A program made the translations under genes and the position numbers. A stretch of 59,359 bases of DNA from Thermodesulfobacteriota bacterium. Its GTDB lineage: Bacteria; Desulfobacterota; WTBG01; CAIYCZ01; CAIRTM01. How positions within the stretch are numbered: position 1 is the first letter of the stretch; each line of letters opens with the position of its first letter. The notes beneath the pieces are model-generated. The model was not told the DNA's origin and did not search any database. It was given only the letters and a program-made list of their open reading frames with translations. Positions 122-9,590 of this stretch are shown one piece after another. Where the stretch lies: positions 1 through 59,359 of the forward strand of contig JANQGV010000165.1 of assembly GCA_028282925.1 (NCBI GenBank). Reading direction: 5' to 3'.

Positions 122-157
122 AAAATCACCGGCTCCAATGCCGGAGCCGGTGATTTT
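122..157 (-). terminator. rho-independent terminator of the lipoprotein-hydrolase gene
   Basis: A 15-bp perfect stem (122-136 paired with 143-157) with a 6-nt loop lies just past the stop codon at 187. The A-run on the plus strand becomes the U-tract of the minus-strand transcript. Confidence 0.85.
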
Positions 158-186: not shown

Positions 187-2841
187 CTATTCAGTTTCAA
201 TAAACACCTCAACATTGGGGTCAATATCCTTGCCCGAGGTGGAGACATAGTACAGAGCCTCCTGGTCGTTCAAGGCATAGGCCCGCAAAAACAGGGCGCT
301 CCAGCGGGCCGAGGTCTCAATGGCTACGGCCTGGTCCAGCGTGGGCTCGTTGGGATCTTCCCCGGGCCCCGGCGGATTATTCACATCGCACAGCACATAA
401 TGGTTTGCACCCTCAATAGAGACAAACATTTTGGGCGGGTCCTGTATCAGGTCGTACGACTGCTGGGTTACTGAATACCTGGCATTATTATCGATGCTGC
501 CGTTGATGATCGCCATGGGCATGCCGTTGTTGTAGGTTTCCCTGATCTTGAAATCAAAGGGTTTGCCCCGCGGTTTGGTATTGATGCCGCACAGCGCCAC
601 CGCCTTAAGCTCCTCGGGCAGCACGAAGGTTTCACCCTCATCACAAAAAGGATACTCGCACTCGTTCTGGATAGCACCGATTGTGCAGGCCGCGCCGAAT
701 GAATGGCCCAGCATGACCAGGGTTTCGGTATCAACCAGCCCGTAAAGCGGCGATGAGGCGTTATCGTTTTGCGCCGCCGTATACGACAGCGTATCGTTCA
801 TCTGCCGCGCCTGGGAAAAAAGACCCTCGGACGAATACCCCGGAAATTCAAAAACGTTCATATGGTTGGGCACCACCACGATGAATCCATATTGGGCAAC
901 CGTGCGGGCATAGGTTGCATAATAGGATTTATCAACCCGGCCGCCCTGCAGCAAAAGCGCAACCGGAAACGATTGCGTTGCGTTGTCGGCTTTCGGGTAG
1001 TACACATCTGCCGGATCATTGTCCCCGGGGATGGTTGTTGCATAGGTATCAACCTTATCAAACTGCGGCTGCGGGGTTGAAGGGACAACAGACTGGCGAT
1101 AGATCATGCCGCCCTCGGGCGGCTCAAGACCTTCGGGGCTGTCTACGGTGCCCTTGTTTATCGATGCATAGAGATACCCCTTGTACTTAACAAAAGCATC
1201 GAAGGCGGTTGCATGCTTGTCGCCGAAGCCGTTGCGGGTTACCGGCAGCCAGGTTAGACCGTCCTCTGTTTTCCAGAGCTGCGCACCGGTAAGGCTCTCC
1301 TGGGTGGCGCCGATGGTGGGCGCAAACAGGGACACCAGCCCTGCATACATGGTATCGTTGTCCACAAACAGGTTTGCGGCCGTATTTTGATAGTAGAACA
1401 GGCTGCTCATGTTGCGCTTGCCGTCAAAGCCGTTGGGCAGGCTGCCGTCGTCGCCGCCCACGCTGTGAAACCAGCTCCCGTCTTCGGAGCTGCCGGTGGG
1501 CGTGTACATAACCCGGGCCCCGGCCAGCGACTGTATGCCTACATGCAGCATGCCGTTAAAATCGGCCAGGCTCCAGGGCATAAAATCTCCGTTGAACATG
1601 GAGCAGTCCATACCGCACCCGAACCCGTTTTCATTGGAGCCTTCATCATTGTCATCAACCCCGGCATCCACAATCAGCTCCCATCCGCTTTCGGTCAGCT
1701 TTGCCATCCGGGAGCAGCGCCCCTGGTCGCCCGAAGCACCGGTGCCGCCGGCATAGAGCACGGGCTCGCCGGACACCGATGATACACACAGGTCGGTTAT
1801 GCTGGTGCTCACCGGCTTAATGCCGCGGGGATACAGATCGTTGTTATGATAATTGCCGAAGCTGTTTGTGGGCTCGGTCACGGTCCAGGTGTCGCCGTCT
1901 TCGGTATACCAGATCTGCCCGCCGCGTTCATAGTTGAGGCCGGTGCTGACGTACAGCTTGCCCTCGAAAATCACCATGCCGGTTACCATCCGGTTCCAGT
2001 AGTCGCCGAACCCGCTTTCATCCATACCGGTCCCGATTTCATAGGTGTCGCCGGTCGTCACCGCCCCGAGATCGGTTTCATGGGGCGGAAACGGATTATC
2101 AAGATGCTGGGCCCCGCAAATGGTGTACTCGGTAAAGTCATCATTGGCGGTGCTGTCTACCTCATTCTGCTGCACCACCACCTCGGTTGCCGTATTAGAG
2201 AGAATATCAAACAGCCTGAATTTCCCGTCACCGCTCATGATCTCCAGCGTCGCGCCGGCCCACTGGTCGGCCTGCCAGCTCTTACTGCTGTCGGTAAACA
2301 CTGCCGTTGTTTCACTGTCTGAATCGTCGCAGCCGCTGATTGCGCTGATCGTTCCGGTCTCCTCAGAGTCTTTCCGGGCGGAGATAACCGGCTCCCAGGT
2401 GGTGCCGTCGTAGCGCCAGATTTCACATCCCGTTGAGCGGCGCACCCGGCCCTGGCACCCAGAAGAAAAACCGCAGTACAGCTTGTCGTTAAACACAATC
2501 ATCTCACCCCACAGGCAGTTAAGCCAGGGGTTGCCGTATACCCCGTTCATCTCGCCGCCGGGATACGGCACCTGCTCCCAGGTGGTTCCGTCGCCTCGCC
2601 AGATCTCGGCACCCTCGGCCTCATTACGGGTCATCACATACAAAGAGTCCTGATACTCGGCCATGGCTACAATCGAATAGTTGTTCACGCTGCCGAACCC
2701 GGGCTCTATGACCTTTTCCCATTGCGACCCATCTTCAACATCCGGGATCTGTTCAATATCACATCCCCCGAAAAACATCAGCACCATTACCAGCACACAG
2801 AGCAACGCCCTGCACGCATACCCATATCCGTACTTCCTCAT
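187..2841 (-). CDS. secreted lipoprotein: propeller-like N-terminal part fused to an alpha/beta-hydrolase
   Basis: The 884-residue protein starts at the ATG at 2841, preceded by a strong AAGGAGG; the frame is open further upstream but has no Shine-Dalgarno there. Residues 1-27 form a lipoprotein signal ending FFGGC, so it is probably anchored in a membrane. Residues about 40-600 carry repeated 'IWR.DG.TWE' and 'LYAG'/'LYVS' strands, typical of a beta-propeller or kelch-like fold. Residues about 640-884 are an alpha/beta-hydrolase of the dienelactone-hydrolase/chlorophyllase-like kind. The nucleophile elbow is GHSFG (Ser714), with probable Asp784 and His814 completing the triad. The substrate is unknown; an ester on the outside of the cell is an inference. 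It is monocistronic with its own terminator. Confidence 0.8.
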   Translation of the reverse strand: MRKYGYGYACRALLCVLVMVLMFFGGCDIEQIPDVEDGSQWEKVIEPGFGSVNNYSIVAMAEYQDSLYVMTRNEAEGAEIWRGDGTTWEQVPYPGGEMNGVYGNPWLNCLWGEMIVFNDKLYCGFSSGCQGRVRRSTGCEIWRYDGTTWEPVISARKDSEETGTISAISGCDDSDSETTAVFTDSSKSWQADQWAGATLEIMSGDGKFRLFDILSNTATEVVVQQNEVDSTANDDFTEYTICGAQHLDNPFPPHETDLGAVTTGDTYEIGTGMDESGFGDYWNRMVTGMVIFEGKLYVSTGLNYERGGQIWYTEDGDTWTVTEPTNSFGNYHNNDLYPRGIKPVSTSITDLCVSSVSGEPVLYAGGTGASGDQGRCSRMAKLTESGWELIVDAGVDDNDEGSNENGFGCGMDCSMFNGDFMPWSLADFNGMLHVGIQSLAGARVMYTPTGSSEDGSWFHSVGGDDGSLPNGFDGKRNMSSLFYYQNTAANLFVDNDTMYAGLVSLFAPTIGATQESLTGAQLWKTEDGLTWLPVTRNGFGDKHATAFDAFVKYKGYLYASINKGTVDSPEGLEPPEGGMIYRQSVVPSTPQPQFDKVDTYATTIPGDNDPADVYYPKADNATQSFPVALLLQGGRVDKSYYATYARTVAQYGFIVVVPNHMNVFEFPGYSSEGLFSQARQMNDTLSYTAAQNDNASSPLYGLVDTETLVMLGHSFGAACTIGAIQNECEYPFCDEGETFVLPEELKAVALCGINTKPRGKPFDFKIRETYNNGMPMAIINGSIDNNARYSVTQQSYDLIQDPPKMFVSIEGANHYVLCDVNNPPGPGEDPNEPTLDQAVAIETSARWSALFLRAYALNDQEALYYVSTSGKDIDPNVEVFIETE

Positions 2842-3205: not shown

Positions 3206-4906
3206 ATGCCGGCAGGCGGTTTTGGAAATCTTATCGCGCTGCCGCTTCAGAAAAAACCACGCGAAATGGGGAATACTCTTTTCCTGGATCAAAATTTCAA
3301 TCCTTATGATGACCAGTGGGCATTCTTGTCTTCAGCAACAAAGATGCTTCCTCATGATGTAAAAACGATAGTAACTGCAGCCATGCAGCGTGGAGATATT
3401 ACAGGTGTAAAGGCATGTATTACAGAAGAAGACGATGTTTTCCCATGGCAACAACCTCCCTCACGGCAGATGCAACAAAAACCCATCATGGGGCCATTGC
3501 CGGAAAAAGTGCAACTGGTGCTCGGCAATCAGATCTATATTGAAAAGGCCGTGCTGCCTCCTGCATTACGGAACCGTCTAATCCGGATTGCCGCTTTTCA
3601 AAATCCGGAATTTTATAAAAACCAGGCAATGCGATTGCCGACATATGACAAGCCCCGCATCATTCATTGCTGTGAAGATTTTCCGGACCACATCGGATTG
3701 CCGCGCGGCTGCCTGGATGAAGTAACGGAACTTCTGCACTCACTCAACATAAAACCATCTGTGGTTGACGAACGTTTCCCGGGTGTTCCCATAAACTGCA
3801 TATTCACCGGAGAACTTCGGCATGAGCAAAAGCCGGCCGCAGAGGAAATGCTTCGGCATGACAATGGGATTTTGGCTGCTACTACGGCGTTTGGGAAAAC
3901 GGTAGTTGCAATATATTTACTGGCAAAACGCGGAGTCAACACCCTGATACTGGTTCACCGCAGGCAACTGCTTGATCAATGGATTGTCCGACTGCAGAGT
4001 TTTCTTGACATTACGGCTGATAACATCGGTCAGATCGGAAGCGGCAAACGAAAACCGACAGGAATCATTGATATTGGTACCATTCAGAGCCTGAGCAAAA
4101 GAGGTGTTGTTGATGATATTGTCGGTGAGTACGGCCACATCATTGTCGATGAATGCCATCATATTTCCGCACCAAGCTTTGAGATCGTAGCCCGGCAAAG
4201 CAAAGCGTGCTATGTAACCGGCCTCTCTGCAACCGTTGTACGTAAAGATGGGCATCACCCGATAATTTTCATGAACTGTGGCCCCATCCGCTACGGAATC
4301 GATCCTCGCAAGCAGGCTGCTTCAAGACCGTTTGTCCATAAAGTTATTACCAGAAAAACCACCTTTAGCTTACCCGCCGCACTTGCCAGCACAGATTCTC
4401 TGAAAATGCATGACCTCTATGGTGCCTTATCGGTTGATGACAAGCGAAACCGGATGATCGTTGACGATGTTCTGATGTCGCTGAAAGAAAATAGATCACC
4501 GTTGGTGTTGACTGAAAGGAGAGAACATATTGAAACGCTTGTGACACTCCTATCTCCTCACGCAAAAAACATCCTGGTATTTAAAGGCGGCATGGGCAAG
4601 AAACAAAGAAAGGCACTTGAAGAAAAACTTCAAAGTATCCCGGATCATGAGGAAAGAATTATTGTCGCCACCGGCCGCTACCTCGGCGAAGGCTTTGATG
4701 ATGCTCGATTGGACACCCTGTTTCTGACACTGCCTATATCATGGAAAGGAACGCTTGCACAGTACACGGGTCGCCTGCACCGCTCTCATGATATGAAGAA
4801 GGAAGTTGTTATATATGATTACGCAGACCTTAACATACCAATGCTTGCTAAAATGTACGCCAGGCGACTTCATGGCTACAAAACTATCGGGTATCAAGTG
4901 GAATAA
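3206..4906 (+). CDS. 5'-truncated TOTE-type primase-helicase (helicase part intact)
   Basis: The frame gives 566 residues from ATG 3206, but recognisable family sequence already runs in frame from about 3185 (FRPSQDTMPAGGFGN), behind a TAA at 3170. This motif and the following GNTLFLD...DQW segment are the C-terminal end of an archaeo-eukaryotic-type primase domain as found in TOTE conflict systems. The primase front half is therefore missing. Residues about 200-566 form a superfamily 2 helicase with Walker A TAFGKT (226-231), a DEAD-box-like DECH (315-318), motif III SAT (341-343) and a C-terminal RecA fold ending in a conserved YADL segment. No obvious Shine-Dalgarno precedes 3206, so expression is doubtful. 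I read it as a decaying defence gene, although the helicase domains look complete. Confidence 0.7.
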   Translation: MPAGGFGNLIALPLQKKPREMGNTLFLDQNFNPYDDQWAFLSSATKMLPHDVKTIVTAAMQRGDITGVKACITEEDDVFPWQQPPSRQMQQKPIMGPLPEKVQLVLGNQIYIEKAVLPPALRNRLIRIAAFQNPEFYKNQAMRLPTYDKPRIIHCCEDFPDHIGLPRGCLDEVTELLHSLNIKPSVVDERFPGVPINCIFTGELRHEQKPAAEEMLRHDNGILAATTAFGKTVVAIYLLAKRGVNTLILVHRRQLLDQWIVRLQSFLDITADNIGQIGSGKRKPTGIIDIGTIQSLSKRGVVDDIVGEYGHIIVDECHHISAPSFEIVARQSKACYVTGLSATVVRKDGHHPIIFMNCGPIRYGIDPRKQAASRPFVHKVITRKTTFSLPAALASTDSLKMHDLYGALSVDDKRNRMIVDDVLMSLKENRSPLVLTERREHIETLVTLLSPHAKNILVFKGGMGKKQRKALEEKLQSIPDHEERIIVATGRYLGEGFDDARLDTLFLTLPISWKGTLAQYTGRLHRSHDMKKEVVIYDYADLNIPMLAKMYARRLHGYKTIGYQVE

Positions 4907-4921
4907 TGCAATTTGAGGAAC

Positions 4922-5053
4922 ATGATGCATAAGACAATTGAAGAGTTCAAAGAAATCATCGGAGATACAGAATACGCCACAGTGAAGCAAATGCTTAGGG
5001 TTATCGGCCCTGATGCCCGCACTCACAGTACAAATAAGGGGACATCCGTTTAA
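4922..5053 (+). CDS. small frame cut off by the RAYT left end
   Basis: A 43-codon frame starts at ATG 4922, 15 nt after the helicase stop, with GAGGA just upstream. The first 34 or so residues look like an ordinary soluble helical protein start (KTIEEFKEIIGDTEYATVKQ). The last residues (NKGTSV) are translated from the RAYT left terminus at 5038-5060, which supplies the stop. It is probably the 5' stub of a second gene of the helicase operon interrupted by the element. I do not recognise a family. Confidence 0.4.
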   Translation: MMHKTIEEFKEIIGDTEYATVKQMLRVIGPDARTHSTNKGTSV

Positions 5054-6120
5054 TATTGACTTATTATTTTTTGTTCAAGTTTGGCCTTTTGCACTATCGC
5101 CTTGCCTCGCTTTACGGCGTTACTCACTGCCGATGGGCTGATGTTAAGCTCTAGGGCAATGGATTTACAACTAAGCTTCAACTTCCGTGCTGCTAAATAA
5201 CATACTGCCGATCTGATCTCAGCAATTTTGCGCTCACGGCATCCGCTACAAAGATCATCAATGTCCGTTTTATAATACGCGGCAACACGTGACAACAATT
5301 TTTCAAAATCAAACCCCTGCATCTGCAATGAGGTACTTTGCTGCATTTCTTCTTCCACCTGTTTCAGGACTGCGGCAACAAAATCACTCGATCCCAGTAT
5401 TCTTTCATCACCTTTGATCCTGACTCCCCGACGCGTGTGTTCCTTTAACGATTTCCACCCACCAATAGACCTGAGAAGCCCACCCCCAACGAGCTCGGGG
5501 CGGCGGCCCAGGTTCATACCTTCCTTCACAAAAGTTCGATACTTCCTGCGTGCCTGCCTCAGTGTTTTGTCAAACAATTTCAGTACTTCCTTTGTACTCT
5601 GCCATTCATGTGTCAGTGTTCCCATTACTACCGCATGACCGCTATACCGATATGTTTTCAATTCCTGCATATCTGCAACGATTCCTGCGCGCAGGGGGTT
5701 CAAATGAATATAGCGTATCAACTCCAGTAAATAGGAATCTTTTTCACACAGAATGGATTTATATCGATTCTGGAACAACTGACCATGGCGTTTATAACTG
5801 CGGTTAAAATCCTGGGCATACCCGGTCAGCAGACGTCGCATCACCGTGGCAATCGGCACCGTGCCGGTCATTAAAAGCAAATGGACATGGTTGGACATCA
5901 GGGACCATGCATAACAGGGGGTCTCGGTGTCGGTCAATATGCCGCCAAGCCGCTCGACAAAACGCTCCTTGTCGGTATCATTCCTGAAAATGTCCTTTTT
6001 CTCTATCCCTCGTATGATGATATGATGCAACGCACCGGGGGCATCTATGCGGGCTTGTCGTGGCATAACCTCATTTGTATCACCTGCTCGCCTTTATGTC
6101 AATATTAAACGGACGTCCCC
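5038..6120. mobile_element. RAYT-type (IS200-like) element with 23-bp inverted ends
   Basis: The transposase gene at 5050-6066 is bracketed by inverted repeats 5038-5060 and 6098-6120. These match at 22 of 23 positions; the single difference is GGGGACATCC versus GGGGACGTCC. The left end overlaps the transposase stop codon. Partial copies of the GGGGAC end occur near 3170 and at 9796-9815, which suggests past activity in this locus. Confidence 0.75.
5050..6066 (-). CDS. REP-associated tyrosine transposase (RAYT)
   Basis: This 338-residue protein belongs to the Y1 HUH single-strand transposase family. The HUH motif is in SNHVHLLLM at about residues 58-66 and the catalytic tyrosine in the conserved ELIRYIHLNPLRAG segment at about 115-130. 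The opening MPRQARIDAPGALHHI is typical of RAYTs. A C-terminal extension (about 230-338) ends with a helix-turn-helix (ALELNISPSAVSNAVKRG) that could read the palindromic ends. The flanking near-perfect inverted repeats support a complete element. RAYTs are thought to mobilise or process REP palindromes. Confidence 0.9.
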   Translation of the reverse strand: MPRQARIDAPGALHHIIIRGIEKKDIFRNDTDKERFVERLGGILTDTETPCYAWSLMSNHVHLLLMTGTVPIATVMRRLLTGYAQDFNRSYKRHGQLFQNRYKSILCEKDSYLLELIRYIHLNPLRAGIVADMQELKTYRYSGHAVVMGTLTHEWQSTKEVLKLFDKTLRQARRKYRTFVKEGMNLGRRPELVGGGLLRSIGGWKSLKEHTRRGVRIKGDERILGSSDFVAAVLKQVEEEMQQSTSLQMQGFDFEKLLSRVAAYYKTDIDDLCSGCRERKIAEIRSAVCYLAARKLKLSCKSIALELNISPSAVSNAVKRGKAIVQKAKLEQKIISQY

Positions 6121-6303: not shown

Positions 6304-8187
6304 CTAAGCATCACGAACAGACACAAGTGTACAGAGGTGTTGCATATTGTCCATACGCGATCTTGTCTTATACCCCAAATGATCACACACTGCTTCAATT
6401 TTCTGGCAAAAGATGTCGGCGTCCAAGGAAGTCATCCAAAGCTCGCCAGAGTCCTCTCGATTTGTACTTTGCCATTCCGTCTCATCATCCAGTGGATGTT
6501 CGGGGCGAAACGGATGGACGTTGAATATTTTGTTATCAACCTGTGTGATCCACCCAGCTCCAACCTCAGTCAGTGCCCCCCAAGATTTCTTCGTGTTTCT
6601 ACTGGTAACGAAAATGACAAAGATTTTCTCTGTAGAATAGCTTTCTACAAAAAAATCGCGCAGATACTCATACACCTTCATTCCCTCAGGGATGCGGCTA
6701 ATTTCGTGGTCACAGTTGGTATACAGAATATCCTCTTGAGGAGAACGGTTATGGATGAGCATCTGATATATGATATCTGCAAATGGCTTATCGCCACGCG
6801 TCTGGCTGATAAGAATGCGACGCTTTGCTTGATCAACTTGCTGTTTGAGACCCAAATCCGGAACATTATCGTTGATAGAATCGGCAATAATCCTTTCAAT
6901 AGATTCAGGGGGGAGCTTTGCGGAAAGTCCGATTTTTTCAGAAATCAGTTTCGTTGCTCGGCTTATAACTTCGTTGCGAAAATGGTCCACGTTGGCCTTG
7001 AGCAATGCTTCTTTCTGACGTTGTTCTTCCAATTTCAACTTCTTCTTTTCTGCGCCTACCAAATCCGCATAGAAATCTCGCTTGCGCAAGATATCGGAGA
7101 GGAGCGTTTTCCTTACGTAGTCAAGTGTGGCCAAGTATCGAGGATCATCCGACTTGTACCCCTGTCGATTGCTAAGTGCCATATCAGGCAATTCGGTGAG
7201 TTCAAACAAGTCAACATGAAGCTGCCCAACTACGTAAACCTCATTTAGCTTGTTCTGCCCAACAAGCGGTAAAATATTGAATTCACCCATCTTTTTATTA
7301 GCAATTAAGGAAATAAAATTGTCTGGAAAATCAGTAATTTCAGCCTTTCTGCCACGTGTTGTGGAGTATGCGCCTATCCACCCTTCAATTTTTAGCTGAT
7401 ATTCTCGTTTTTGCCCTTCCGTATTTTCCATCTCTACCGGGATTTCGACAGCAGCCATTCCCTCAACAAGTTCCGCATGTCTCTCAGGATGTTGGCGTGG
7501 TACCAACGAACGCAGAAAGTCGAATGCGCTACCAAGAGTAATCAGACTACATAGATCACCCATAACATGCCGGTCAAAGTCTCCTATGATAATCTTCTTT
7601 TCTCCCCGAATTACATGAATTCGGAAATCGTTGTTCACCACAGGGAAGATCTTCAGTAAATTTTTCTTTACAGCCGTCAACGTTTTGTGAAGACGGTATT
7701 CCGGGGAACGCATGACGACAGCAGATCCGTTTCCTTCAACTTTTGTGAAGCGAATCCGATTCTCCGGAATTGGGGTCAGCAGATTGTTATCGGTTGGGTG
7801 TCTAGACAAGACAAATCCCGATAATTCTTTTCCACATCGTGTCATCACCTCTACGTTCTCGGAAACAGACAAGGCTGCCAGTTTACCAACGCCTTTGCGA
7901 CCCATCCTGCGCCGATTACCAGATCGGGTGAATGATTGCTCCTCGGTCACACGTGACGCTGCTGCTACATTCAAATACTTTTCAATGTCCCCATCGTCAT
8001 AAGACATGCCGTGCCCATCATCCTCTACCGTGATATCATCGGGATTAGCAATGACGTAGACATTATGGGCGTCTGCGTCGTATGCGTTGGCAATAAGTTC
8101 TGCCAATACATAGTAGATATTGGTATAGAGGCTCGGACCGAGAAGCTCTAATATTCGAGGGTCAATGCTCAGTTTATATTCTTTCAT
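6304..8187 (-). CDS. GHKL ATPase (MORC/MutL-like) with C-terminal TIR-like domain
   Basis: The protein has 627 residues; its ATG at 8187 overlaps the stop of the upstream frame as ATGA and has GGAGG 8 nt upstream. Residues 1-200 form a GHKL ATPase: E30/N34 in ELIANAYDADA, DDGHGM at 56-61 and GRKGVGKLA at 96-104. An S5-like segment follows with LPDMALSNRQGY, typical of MutL/MORC-like proteins of restriction-modification loci, then a charged coiled coil at about 385-420. Residues about 457-600 read as a TIR-like domain: a first strand ILISQT, then DKPFAD, CDHEISRIPEG, FVIFVTSRN and SWGALTEVGAGW, with Glu541 at the position of the NADase glutamate. It lies downstream of a C5-cytosine methyltransferase. 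A role as NAD-depleting anti-phage effector is inference; the TIR assignment rests on motif reading only. Confidence 0.75.
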   Translation of the reverse strand: MKEYKLSIDPRILELLGPSLYTNIYYVLAELIANAYDADAHNVYVIANPDDITVEDDGHGMSYDDGDIEKYLNVAAASRVTEEQSFTRSGNRRRMGRKGVGKLAALSVSENVEVMTRCGKELSGFVLSRHPTDNNLLTPIPENRIRFTKVEGNGSAVVMRSPEYRLHKTLTAVKKNLLKIFPVVNNDFRIHVIRGEKKIIIGDFDRHVMGDLCSLITLGSAFDFLRSLVPRQHPERHAELVEGMAAVEIPVEMENTEGQKREYQLKIEGWIGAYSTTRGRKAEITDFPDNFISLIANKKMGEFNILPLVGQNKLNEVYVVGQLHVDLFELTELPDMALSNRQGYKSDDPRYLATLDYVRKTLLSDILRKRDFYADLVGAEKKKLKLEEQRQKEALLKANVDHFRNEVISRATKLISEKIGLSAKLPPESIERIIADSINDNVPDLGLKQQVDQAKRRILISQTRGDKPFADIIYQMLIHNRSPQEDILYTNCDHEISRIPEGMKVYEYLRDFFVESYSTEKIFVIFVTSRNTKKSWGALTEVGAGWITQVDNKIFNVHPFRPEHPLDDETEWQSTNREDSGELWMTSLDADIFCQKIEAVCDHLGYKTRSRMDNMQHLCTLVSVRDA

Positions 8188-8546: not shown

Positions 8547-9590
8547 TTATGAATATTTTTTTGCATTTTTGATGATACTGCGTCCGATCGCTTGCCCAAG
8601 CTTGACCGGTACGGCATTGCCAATGAGACGTCCGACATGTTTCACATAAAGCGGTCCACCTGGACAGACAAATTGATAGCCCTTTGGAAAACTTTGAAAC
8701 ATAGCACCTTCCCTCAAGGAAATCGCTCTATCTTGTTCTGGGTGGCCAAAACGTCCATTACCGAAACCATAAAACTGCGTCGTCATGGTCGGTGCTGGCT
8801 CGTCCCAACACATGCGCCCATAAACGCTGGGGTAGGTCTTGCCACTCTTCTTTTTATGGCATTCGGCTACCAGGCTACGATCCCAATCTCGCCAAGTCCC
8901 CCCCGGCTCCGATTGACGAATGCGTTCAAGATTTTTTTCTGAAAGAAGACTCGCCTGGTGCATTCGGTCATTCACATCAGTTTCGCCAGCATTCAAAGGC
9001 TTCAGGTTTTCTACCATTTGACGAACGGTGATATATTTATCCGAAGTGTGAGTAGGCTTTATTAGATTAATTGGTCCAAACTTGGAAGCCAAGAGAACCA
9101 AACGATGCCTTGTCTGAGGAACGCCGTAATCAGCACAATTCACGACACCATAATCCAAATGGTAATTCAATCTTTTGAGTTTGTTTGTGAATCTCTTGAA
9201 GACGGGATATTTTTGCAGCAAAGGCACATTCTCCATGGTAACTAACTCCGGCTCTGCCTCCTCAACAAGTCTCAGAAATTCGTATAAAAGACGCCATTTA
9301 CTATCCTTTTTGACTACTTTTCCCTGGCTATAAGTAGAAAATGGTTGACATGGTGCACACCCTGCGAGAAGACGATTTTTAGTTTTCCCCCAAATTTTCT
9401 TAAGTCGTTCACCATCAATCTCATCAATACTTTGTTCGATAAAACTGGCTCCGGTGTTTTTCGTTATTGGATATTCGCAAGCAGGATCAATATCTATACC
9501 CGCCATGACTTTAATACCAGCTTTCTCCAACCCTCTGGTCAGTCCACCCGCCCCACAAAACAGATCAATAGCTGAAATTTTTTGTTTCAT
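8547..9590 (-). CDS. C5-cytosine-specific DNA methyltransferase
   Basis: A 347-residue enzyme that transfers a methyl group from SAM to C5 of cytosine. Visible motifs in order: I (DLFCGAGGLTRG, residues about 9-20), the catalytic PCQPFS with its cysteine near residue 81, ENVP near 120, a GVPQTRHRLVLL-type motif VIII near 160, and motif X (LIGNAVPVKLGQAIG) near the C-terminus. The length is normal for a solitary or type II enzyme. It is the first gene of a three-frame operon with the GHKL-TIR protein; no classical restriction endonuclease is visible. By analogy with restriction-modification systems it would mark self DNA. Confidence 0.9.
   Translation of the reverse strand: MKQKISAIDLFCGAGGLTRGLEKAGIKVMAGIDIDPACEYPITKNTGASFIEQSIDEIDGERLKKIWGKTKNRLLAGCAPCQPFSTYSQGKVVKKDSKWRLLYEFLRLVEEAEPELVTMENVPLLQKYPVFKRFTNKLKRLNYHLDYGVVNCADYGVPQTRHRLVLLASKFGPINLIKPTHTSDKYITVRQMVENLKPLNAGETDVNDRMHQASLLSEKNLERIRQSEPGGTWRDWDRSLVAECHKKKSGKTYPSVYGRMCWDEPAPTMTTQFYGFGNGRFGHPEQDRAISLREGAMFQSFPKGYQFVCPGGPLYVKHVGRLIGNAVPVKLGQAIGRSIIKNAKKYS

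Follow-up and report, generated by a model that had tools for sequence, protein, structure and literature searches.

The window, by which we mean the whole 59,359-nucleotide stretch analysed here (contig JANQGV010000165.1 of a Thermodesulfobacteriota bacterium), carries on its minus strand a gene (187..2841) for an 884-residue putative lipoprotein in which a predicted β-propeller is fused to a chlorophyllase-type hydrolase domain. The gene is real and intact, with an open reading frame (ORF) that runs from an ATG at 2841 to a stop at 187 behind a Shine-Dalgarno-like GGAGGG, and full-length homologues of 58-66% identity occur in its own genome and in genomes G002, G003 and G005. A terminator-like hairpin with a 15-pair stem (122..157) lies directly past the stop codon, in a region where the hairpin scan returned 7 such sites against 3.8 expected. 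Upstream lies a helicase-like ORF in divergent orientation, which leaves the gene solitary within the window. By eye, the signal peptide (2761..2841) shows a hydrophobic stretch followed by the lipobox LMFFGGC27, with lipid-bearing Cys27 in its FGGC and Asp28 next. A preliminary description, made from the sequence without database searches, had already called the product a lipoprotein, and the DGTTWE strands, the GHSFG elbow at residues 712-716 and the S714/D784/H814 triad that it listed all lie where it put them.

The front half, residues 36-588 (1078..2736), is by prediction a seven-bladed β-propeller. DGTTWE occurs twice, at residues 84 and 145, and the blades reach a mean pairwise score of 32.8 against 19.7 (s.d. 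0.86, maximum 22.3) in 500 shuffles; control tiles, mainly from the hydrolase half, carry no repeat signal (18.3 against 18.3). In an AlphaFold2 model built from 20 sequences (mean pLDDT 72.4, pTM 0.64) the strands form seven groups, and the last blade is completed by the N-terminal strand of DGSxWExV, giving seven four-stranded repeats with the closure of a seven-bladed propeller. Structural alignment of residues 36-588 with VIA-align matched this part to the PLL4 lectin (Z 24.7, 298 residues aligned, root-mean-square deviation (rmsd) 2.9 Å), LGI1 (Z 24.6, 321 aligned, rmsd 3.1 Å) and CylK (Z 24.5, 328 aligned, rmsd 3.9 Å). At the sequence level, a Pfam search of residues 1-584 gave a best E of only 0.49, and a profile from 19 propeller-family members matched no PDB sequence at E ≤ 0.1. 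The propeller that had been expected from the letters is thus borne out, and nothing here shows the sensor or adhesin that it had been supposed to be. Between blades 2 and 3 sits a beta-rich insert of about 110 residues (residues 160-270; 2032..2364) that is conserved in the module family. In a distant genome (G047), a frame of 1943 residues contains a match to residues 172-258 alone, so the insert may be a mobile beta-domain.

The assignment of the C-terminal domain, residues 590-884 (190..1074), to the cyanobacterial-type chlorophyllase family of α/β-hydrolases is well supported by sequence relationship. Queried by tblastn with the whole protein, a set of 72,556 plasmid records returned only three matches, all cyanobacterial and all to residues 590-882 (45.5, 42.9 and 38.5% identity, E 4e-41 to 2e-55), one of them annotated as a chlorophyllase. 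The combined alignment puts the window domain at 43% identity to the Nostoc protein, 45% to that of Calothrix and 40% to that of Acaryochloris, about as high as the three reach with one another (42-50%). All three exceed the Chlorophyllase Pfam cut-off of 26 bits (31.7-36.1 bits), as do two propeller-fused relatives of the window protein at loci L049 (27.4) and L038 (29.3). Ser714 in the nucleophile elbow (694..708), Asp784 (490..492) and His814 in GANHY (400..402), separated by 70 and 30 residues, are invariant in 11/11 aligned rows, as are the GHS-x-G motif, the Gln-Gly pair Q632-G633, K638 and C728. Because the stretches around D784 and H814 have low pLDDT in the models, this triad is supported by its conservation rather than by geometry, and the structure prediction proposed as a check upheld the propeller without confirming the triad.

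Searches of known structures gave a mixed picture. Polyester hydrolases lead the single-sequence PDB search with the protein (E 6e-8), PE-H (6scd) is among the top two sequence matches of the window hydrolase, and a hydrolase profile adds wheat chlorophyllase 8fjd (E 4.5e-4). A hydrolase-only model (four sequences, pLDDT 62) aligns with polyethylene terephthalate (PET) hydrolases at Z 17.7 (222 of 300 residues, rmsd 3.3 Å, 18% identity) and ties with wheat chlorophyllase at Z 17.4 (242 residues, rmsd 3.6 Å, 17% identity). The PAF-AH Pfam model is also exceeded by the domain alone (23.9 bits, cut-off 20). An α/β-hydrolase with a plausible triad therefore stands, and its likeness to dienelactone hydrolase does not: chlorophyllase-, PETase- and PAF-AH-type models match, PF01738 is not among the Pfam matches at E ≤ 1, and the genome's only dienelactone-hydrolase match is on another contig.

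The domain pair recurs, as a search suggested in the preliminary description might have hoped, both in its own genome and in relatives. The own genome holds 13 matches to the protein, namely itself, one full-length paralogue at 61% identity on contig C220, and eleven partial matches, some of them fragments, confined to stretches within residues 4-610; among relatives, 17 of 58 genomes match at E ≤ 0.001. In a phylum sample of 395 genomes the propeller profile found 12 at E ≤ 1e-20, all from the window's class, and the hydrolase profile 6 at E ≤ 1e-25, all from its family. Scanning the named genome collection with a pattern yielded 22 loci. Of these, 19 are on records titled Thermodesulfobacteriota, delta- or plain Proteobacteria, and three, in Actinomycetota, Solincola and a Thermoplasmatota archaeon, are short matches at the level of the repeat. 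The propeller is a module present in many copies and, in the phylum sample, restricted to a single uncultured class.

This module has exchanged partners repeatedly. The chlorophyllase-type hydrolase lies C-terminal to it in five proteins (the window, L038, L049, L050 and L051), and a different hydrolase, Abhydrolase_5, lies N-terminal to it in four (L059, L032, L066 and L067); in L052, cut by a contig end, Abhydrolase_5 is C-terminal, after a thrombospondin-3 repeat. Other copies carry FG-GAP repeats, Fn3-like tails (by eye) or no partner, and the sub-cut-off matches of the FG-GAP-bearing paralogues to a Tc-toxin FG-GAP-like model fall in stretches that over-cut-off FG-GAP models account for. 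In a tree of 32 propellers the five chlorophyllase-type fusions group together (89/85), as do the four Abhydrolase_5-first fusions (98/96), with a fully supported branch between the two groups and L052 apart. Since the fusion types separate in this way, hydrolases joined the propeller on at least three independent occasions, and on either side of it, which marks it as an enzyme-carrying platform. In the hydrolase tree the propeller-less L057 and L058 nest inside the fused enzymes (98/96, 100/99), so the propeller has also been lost or exchanged. A propeller followed by an α/β-hydrolase, which had been thought unusual in itself, is the known order of S9 peptidases; the unusual feature is rather the joining of this hydrolase family to a lineage-restricted propeller.

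Gene company was assessed by counting distances. We used 39 propeller places (from 40 of 62 match rows, the two rows of one split gene being merged; excluded were 3 hydrolase-only rows, one short fragment (E 1.1e-9) and the 18 weak rows that begin at E 4.6e-8), 140 of 145 bilin-reductase rows (all but the 5 weakest, and including 7 that score under the curated cut-off), 91 DUF1329 places from 95 rows (three split genes merged, one row dropped) and all 36 Abhydrolase_5 rows; the null ignores contig ends, which is conservative, and related genomes are not independent. Abhydrolase_5 is fused to the propeller or within 10 kb at 8 of the 39 propeller places, where 0.66 would be expected (Poisson P 5e-7), the gap in genome G001 being 9 bases. 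DUF1329 genes occur near 3 of the 39 (1.79 expected, not significant). They do lie near bilin-reductase genes, at 16 of 91 places within 10 kb (5.84 expected, P 4e-4) and at 6 of 91 within 5 kb (3.17 expected, P 0.1).

The full-length paralogue on C220 heads a same-strand run that continues with an NAD(P)-binding protein, a bilin reductase (Fe_bilin_red), DUF1302, DUF1329, a flavin-reductase-like protein with a sub-threshold PCP_red match, Abhydrolase_5 and Oxidored_FMN. Related bilin-reductase (FDBR) and NAD-binding genes, at 57-68% identity, accompany RND, YCF48, DUF1329, DUF1302 and Abhydrolase_5 in G003; those of G002 adjoin two nitrogenase-component-1 proteins and two NifH-like proteins, and one of these component-1 proteins has an over-cut-off PCP_red domain and, as its nearest model, BchB (178 bits against a cut-off of 490). 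The own genome has 14 matches to bilin reductase PF05996, and the 13 positives among 58 genomes searched, all from the window's uncultured and apparently heterotrophic class, have 6-17 each; among 14 controls only Synechococcus was positive. A profile of 18 of these proteins finds ferredoxin bilin reductase 6qwq (E 4e-29). At the position of the PcyA catalytic Asp, the 18 rows show by eye D in about half, otherwise E or N, and once F; example loci are L124:13211-13930, L150, L157 and L159. Heme oxygenase was not found in any of 14 class genomes, with three controls positive. In the part of the source drawn on here, the pre-PcyA reductases of heterotrophs are mostly described with heme oxygenase and globins, a different setting (PMC10151467).

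Nitrogenase-like complexes nearest to DPOR, with BchB/BchN-like and two NifH-like proteins and a PCP_red tail, lie at L181:8904-13656, L182:10275-15175 and L184:2666-9387; they score far below the DPOR cut-offs, and that of L184 adjoins CbiX/ferrochelatase-like proteins. By eye, 2 and 2 of 13 DPOR-like genes fall within 10 kb of bilin reductases or DUF1329 (0.91 and 0.47 expected), too few to claim. The RND-YCF48-DUF1329-DUF1302 cluster recurs at L187, L188, L189, L190 and L181, several times with bilin-reductase and Abhydrolase_5 genes, and DUF1329 matches reach 19 in one genome.

From these comparisons we propose an envelope-anchored esterase whose most likely substrate is detrital chlorophyll or pheophytin, cut at the phytyl ester, a reading to which we give an even chance. 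The signal peptide and lipid-bearing Cys would tether the protein to a membrane of the envelope, perhaps at the surface, and the propeller, as a family-specific platform, would probably dock it on a particle, glycan or partner. With His814 and Asp784 assisting, Ser714 would act on a hydrophobic ester by serine-esterase chemistry; the substrate would most likely be the phytyl ester of chlorophyll or pheophytin in algal detritus, giving phytol and chlorophyllide or pheophorbide. Uptake of the products could fall to DUF1302/DUF1329-type machinery, and the ring may then be reduced by bilin-reductase-fold enzymes like those beside the paralogue.

Several observations weigh against this proposal. 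In Escherichia coli, Asp at the position after the lipidated Cys directs retention in the inner membrane, and Asp28 thus speaks against the outer-surface esterase that the preliminary description had pictured; in the four further fusions of propeller and hydrolase this position is taken by Lys, Thr, Glu and Ser. The window protein falls below the Chlorophyllase Pfam cut-off (PF07224; 22.8 bits for the whole protein and 25.4 for the domain) and exceeds that of PETase (PF12740; 31.9 bits whole and 36.1 for the domain alone, cut-off 28). No tetrapyrrole gene adjoins the window gene, and the bilin-reductase expansion is a class-wide trait without physical clustering with propeller genes: 2 of the 39 propeller genes lie within 10 kb of a bilin-reductase gene, no more than the 2.41 expected, and a general link between the two was rejected. 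A search for the Staygreen Mg-dechelatase found none in 17, with the control silent too. The sources drawn on here describe DUF1302/DUF1329 from monoterpene clusters (PMC6394551) and as needed for Tween 20 use by Pseudomonas putida (PMC10866462). Finally, the assayed chlorophyllase OaCLH was compared by description only, which leaves the link to an assayed enzyme one step removed.

The PETase score and the Tween 20 and monoterpene associations would suit a general lipase or esterase for hydrophobic esters (wax, steryl, terpenyl, or cutin- or polyester-type) that has no tetrapyrrole preference and whose propeller binds the particle. PET hydrolases also head the fold lists, and Abhydrolase_5, the second hydrolase family tied to the propeller, lies within 10 kb of DUF1329 at 9 of 36 places (1.75 expected). 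However, the cyanobacterial chlorophyllase-type relatives are far closer (40-45% identity, against about 20% for PET hydrolases), which also makes the polymer or xenobiotic role suggested earlier less likely than a chlorophyll-type ester, and the PETase Pfam cut-off is exceeded in only two of the five propeller-fused proteins, the window's and L038. The motif Met of PET hydrolases, which we take to be the position directly after the catalytic Ser, is replaced by F, Y, A or L in 11/11 rows, and PETase proper was rejected. That substrate-binding-motif Met is present in 12 of 12 PET hydrolases tabulated in one source (PMC8767016). A general esterase is a live, if somewhat unlikely, alternative.

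It is improbable that the protein works through its propeller, as an adhesin, a lectin or a scaffold for assembly, and carries the hydrolase along as a passenger that is minor or has decayed. Many propeller copies do lack an enzyme, and the nearest folds include lectins and LGI1, but the triad is invariant in every aligned row, and hydrolases have not only joined the module independently but also occur as its immediate neighbours. Highly improbable is an enzyme resembling the prolyl oligopeptidases (S9), a gated peptidase or acyl-peptide hydrolase whose active site the propeller would cover as a lid. The domain order is the same and S9 enzymes fill most of the whole-chain Foldseek list, yet these matches have query-normalised template-modelling (TM) scores of 0.12-0.21 and rmsd above 21 Å, and Peptidase_S9 (PF00326) has no match at E ≤ 1 in the window protein or its hydrolase half. 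S9 prolyl oligopeptidases have a hydrolase segment ahead of the propeller; here the first propeller strand follows the signal peptide after about ten residues, and the two domains also occur apart. An S9 peptidase was rejected. A chlorophyllase for the cell's own pigment turnover, as in phototrophs, is scarcely credible even for an enzyme of cyanobacterial type, as BchB, the one chlorophyll-synthesis model searched, passed its cut-off in 0 of 13 genomes, which gave only sub-cut-off nitrogenase-like homologues, with the Synechococcus control positive.

The proposed phytyl esterase invites a broader idea, that an uncultured Desulfobacterota-type class degrades chlorophyll reductively by an undescribed anaerobic route, in place of the oxygen-dependent ring opening of plants. 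A propeller-borne chlorophyllase would remove phytol at the envelope, DUF1302/DUF1329/YCF48/RND machinery would move the hydrophobic products, and the expanded bilin-reductase-fold proteins, 6-17 per genome, would reduce the tetrapyrrole together with DPOR-like nitrogenase complexes. This bold reading draws on gene company, not on activity, and we offer it tentatively, as unlikely in its entirety. Much chlorophyll ends up buried in sediments, and to our knowledge there is no established anaerobic bacterial pathway for its breakdown; a literature search of titles and abstract openings found none. An apparently non-phototrophic lineage with a cyanobacterial-type chlorophyllase lipoprotein, and with a paralogue beside a bilin-reductase homologue, offers a testable gene set for anaerobic chlorophyll breakdown and hints at how such bacteria might feed on the green pigment of dead algae.

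The window also holds genes of other kinds. The helicase-like protein (3206-4906, plus strand) matches the C-terminal end of a CRISPR-associated PrimPol model over its first 131 residues (E 9e-22). An ORF at 5050-6066 on the minus strand has, by eye, the look of a REP-type transposase, judged by what we take to be the REP-type motif, and no PADLOC match. On the same strand, a gene at 6304-8187 that looks by eye like an HSP90/MutL-like ATPase, and that PADLOC matches to models of type II restriction enzymes, adjoins a cytosine DNA methyltransferase gene (8547-9590), and the two are likely a restriction-modification pair.

Compared with known systems, the propeller shares its fold with the PLL/PHL lectins, the EPTP propeller of LGI1 and CylK (Z 22-25), which differ in being only 6-15% identical to it and in having no fused esterase. 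The PET hydrolase/cutinase family (IsPETase, PE-H, LCC) resembles the hydrolase domain in fold (Z 17.1-17.7) and PETase Pfam score, and differs in sequence (about 12-22% identity), in having the motif Met and in lacking a propeller; a literature search for propeller-PETase fusions found nothing relevant. The cyanobacterial proteins all have the window domain's triad. Those of the Nostoc sp. C057 plasmid (WP_179076201, the annotated chlorophyllase) and Calothrix NIES-4101 (BAZ36596) stand alone without a propeller, and that of Acaryochloris (WP_235112333) carries RTX calcium-binding repeats instead. This fusion of the same hydrolase to RTX repeats, on an Acaryochloris plasmid (L176:7317-8963), is perhaps another export route for a chlorophyllase-type enzyme. 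Another assayed enzyme of this type, from Cyanothece ATCC 51142, is cited in PMC8702186. OaCLH (AFY81906), from Oscillatoria acuminata, differs in its phototroph origin and its 325 residues, which leave no room for a propeller, and no lipobox is mentioned in the part of the source drawn on here (PMC7802212). According to that part, it is active on chlorophylls a and b, bacteriochlorophyll a and pheophytin a, has a mutagenised triad S159/D226/H258 with spacings of 67 and 32, and has PE-H 6scd as its closest structure, and GHSFG is the motif of most cyanobacterial chlorophyllases (PMC7802212). OaCLH and the window hydrolase thus share a signal peptide, GHSxG, a Ser-Asp-His triad of similar spacing and PE-H as nearest structure.

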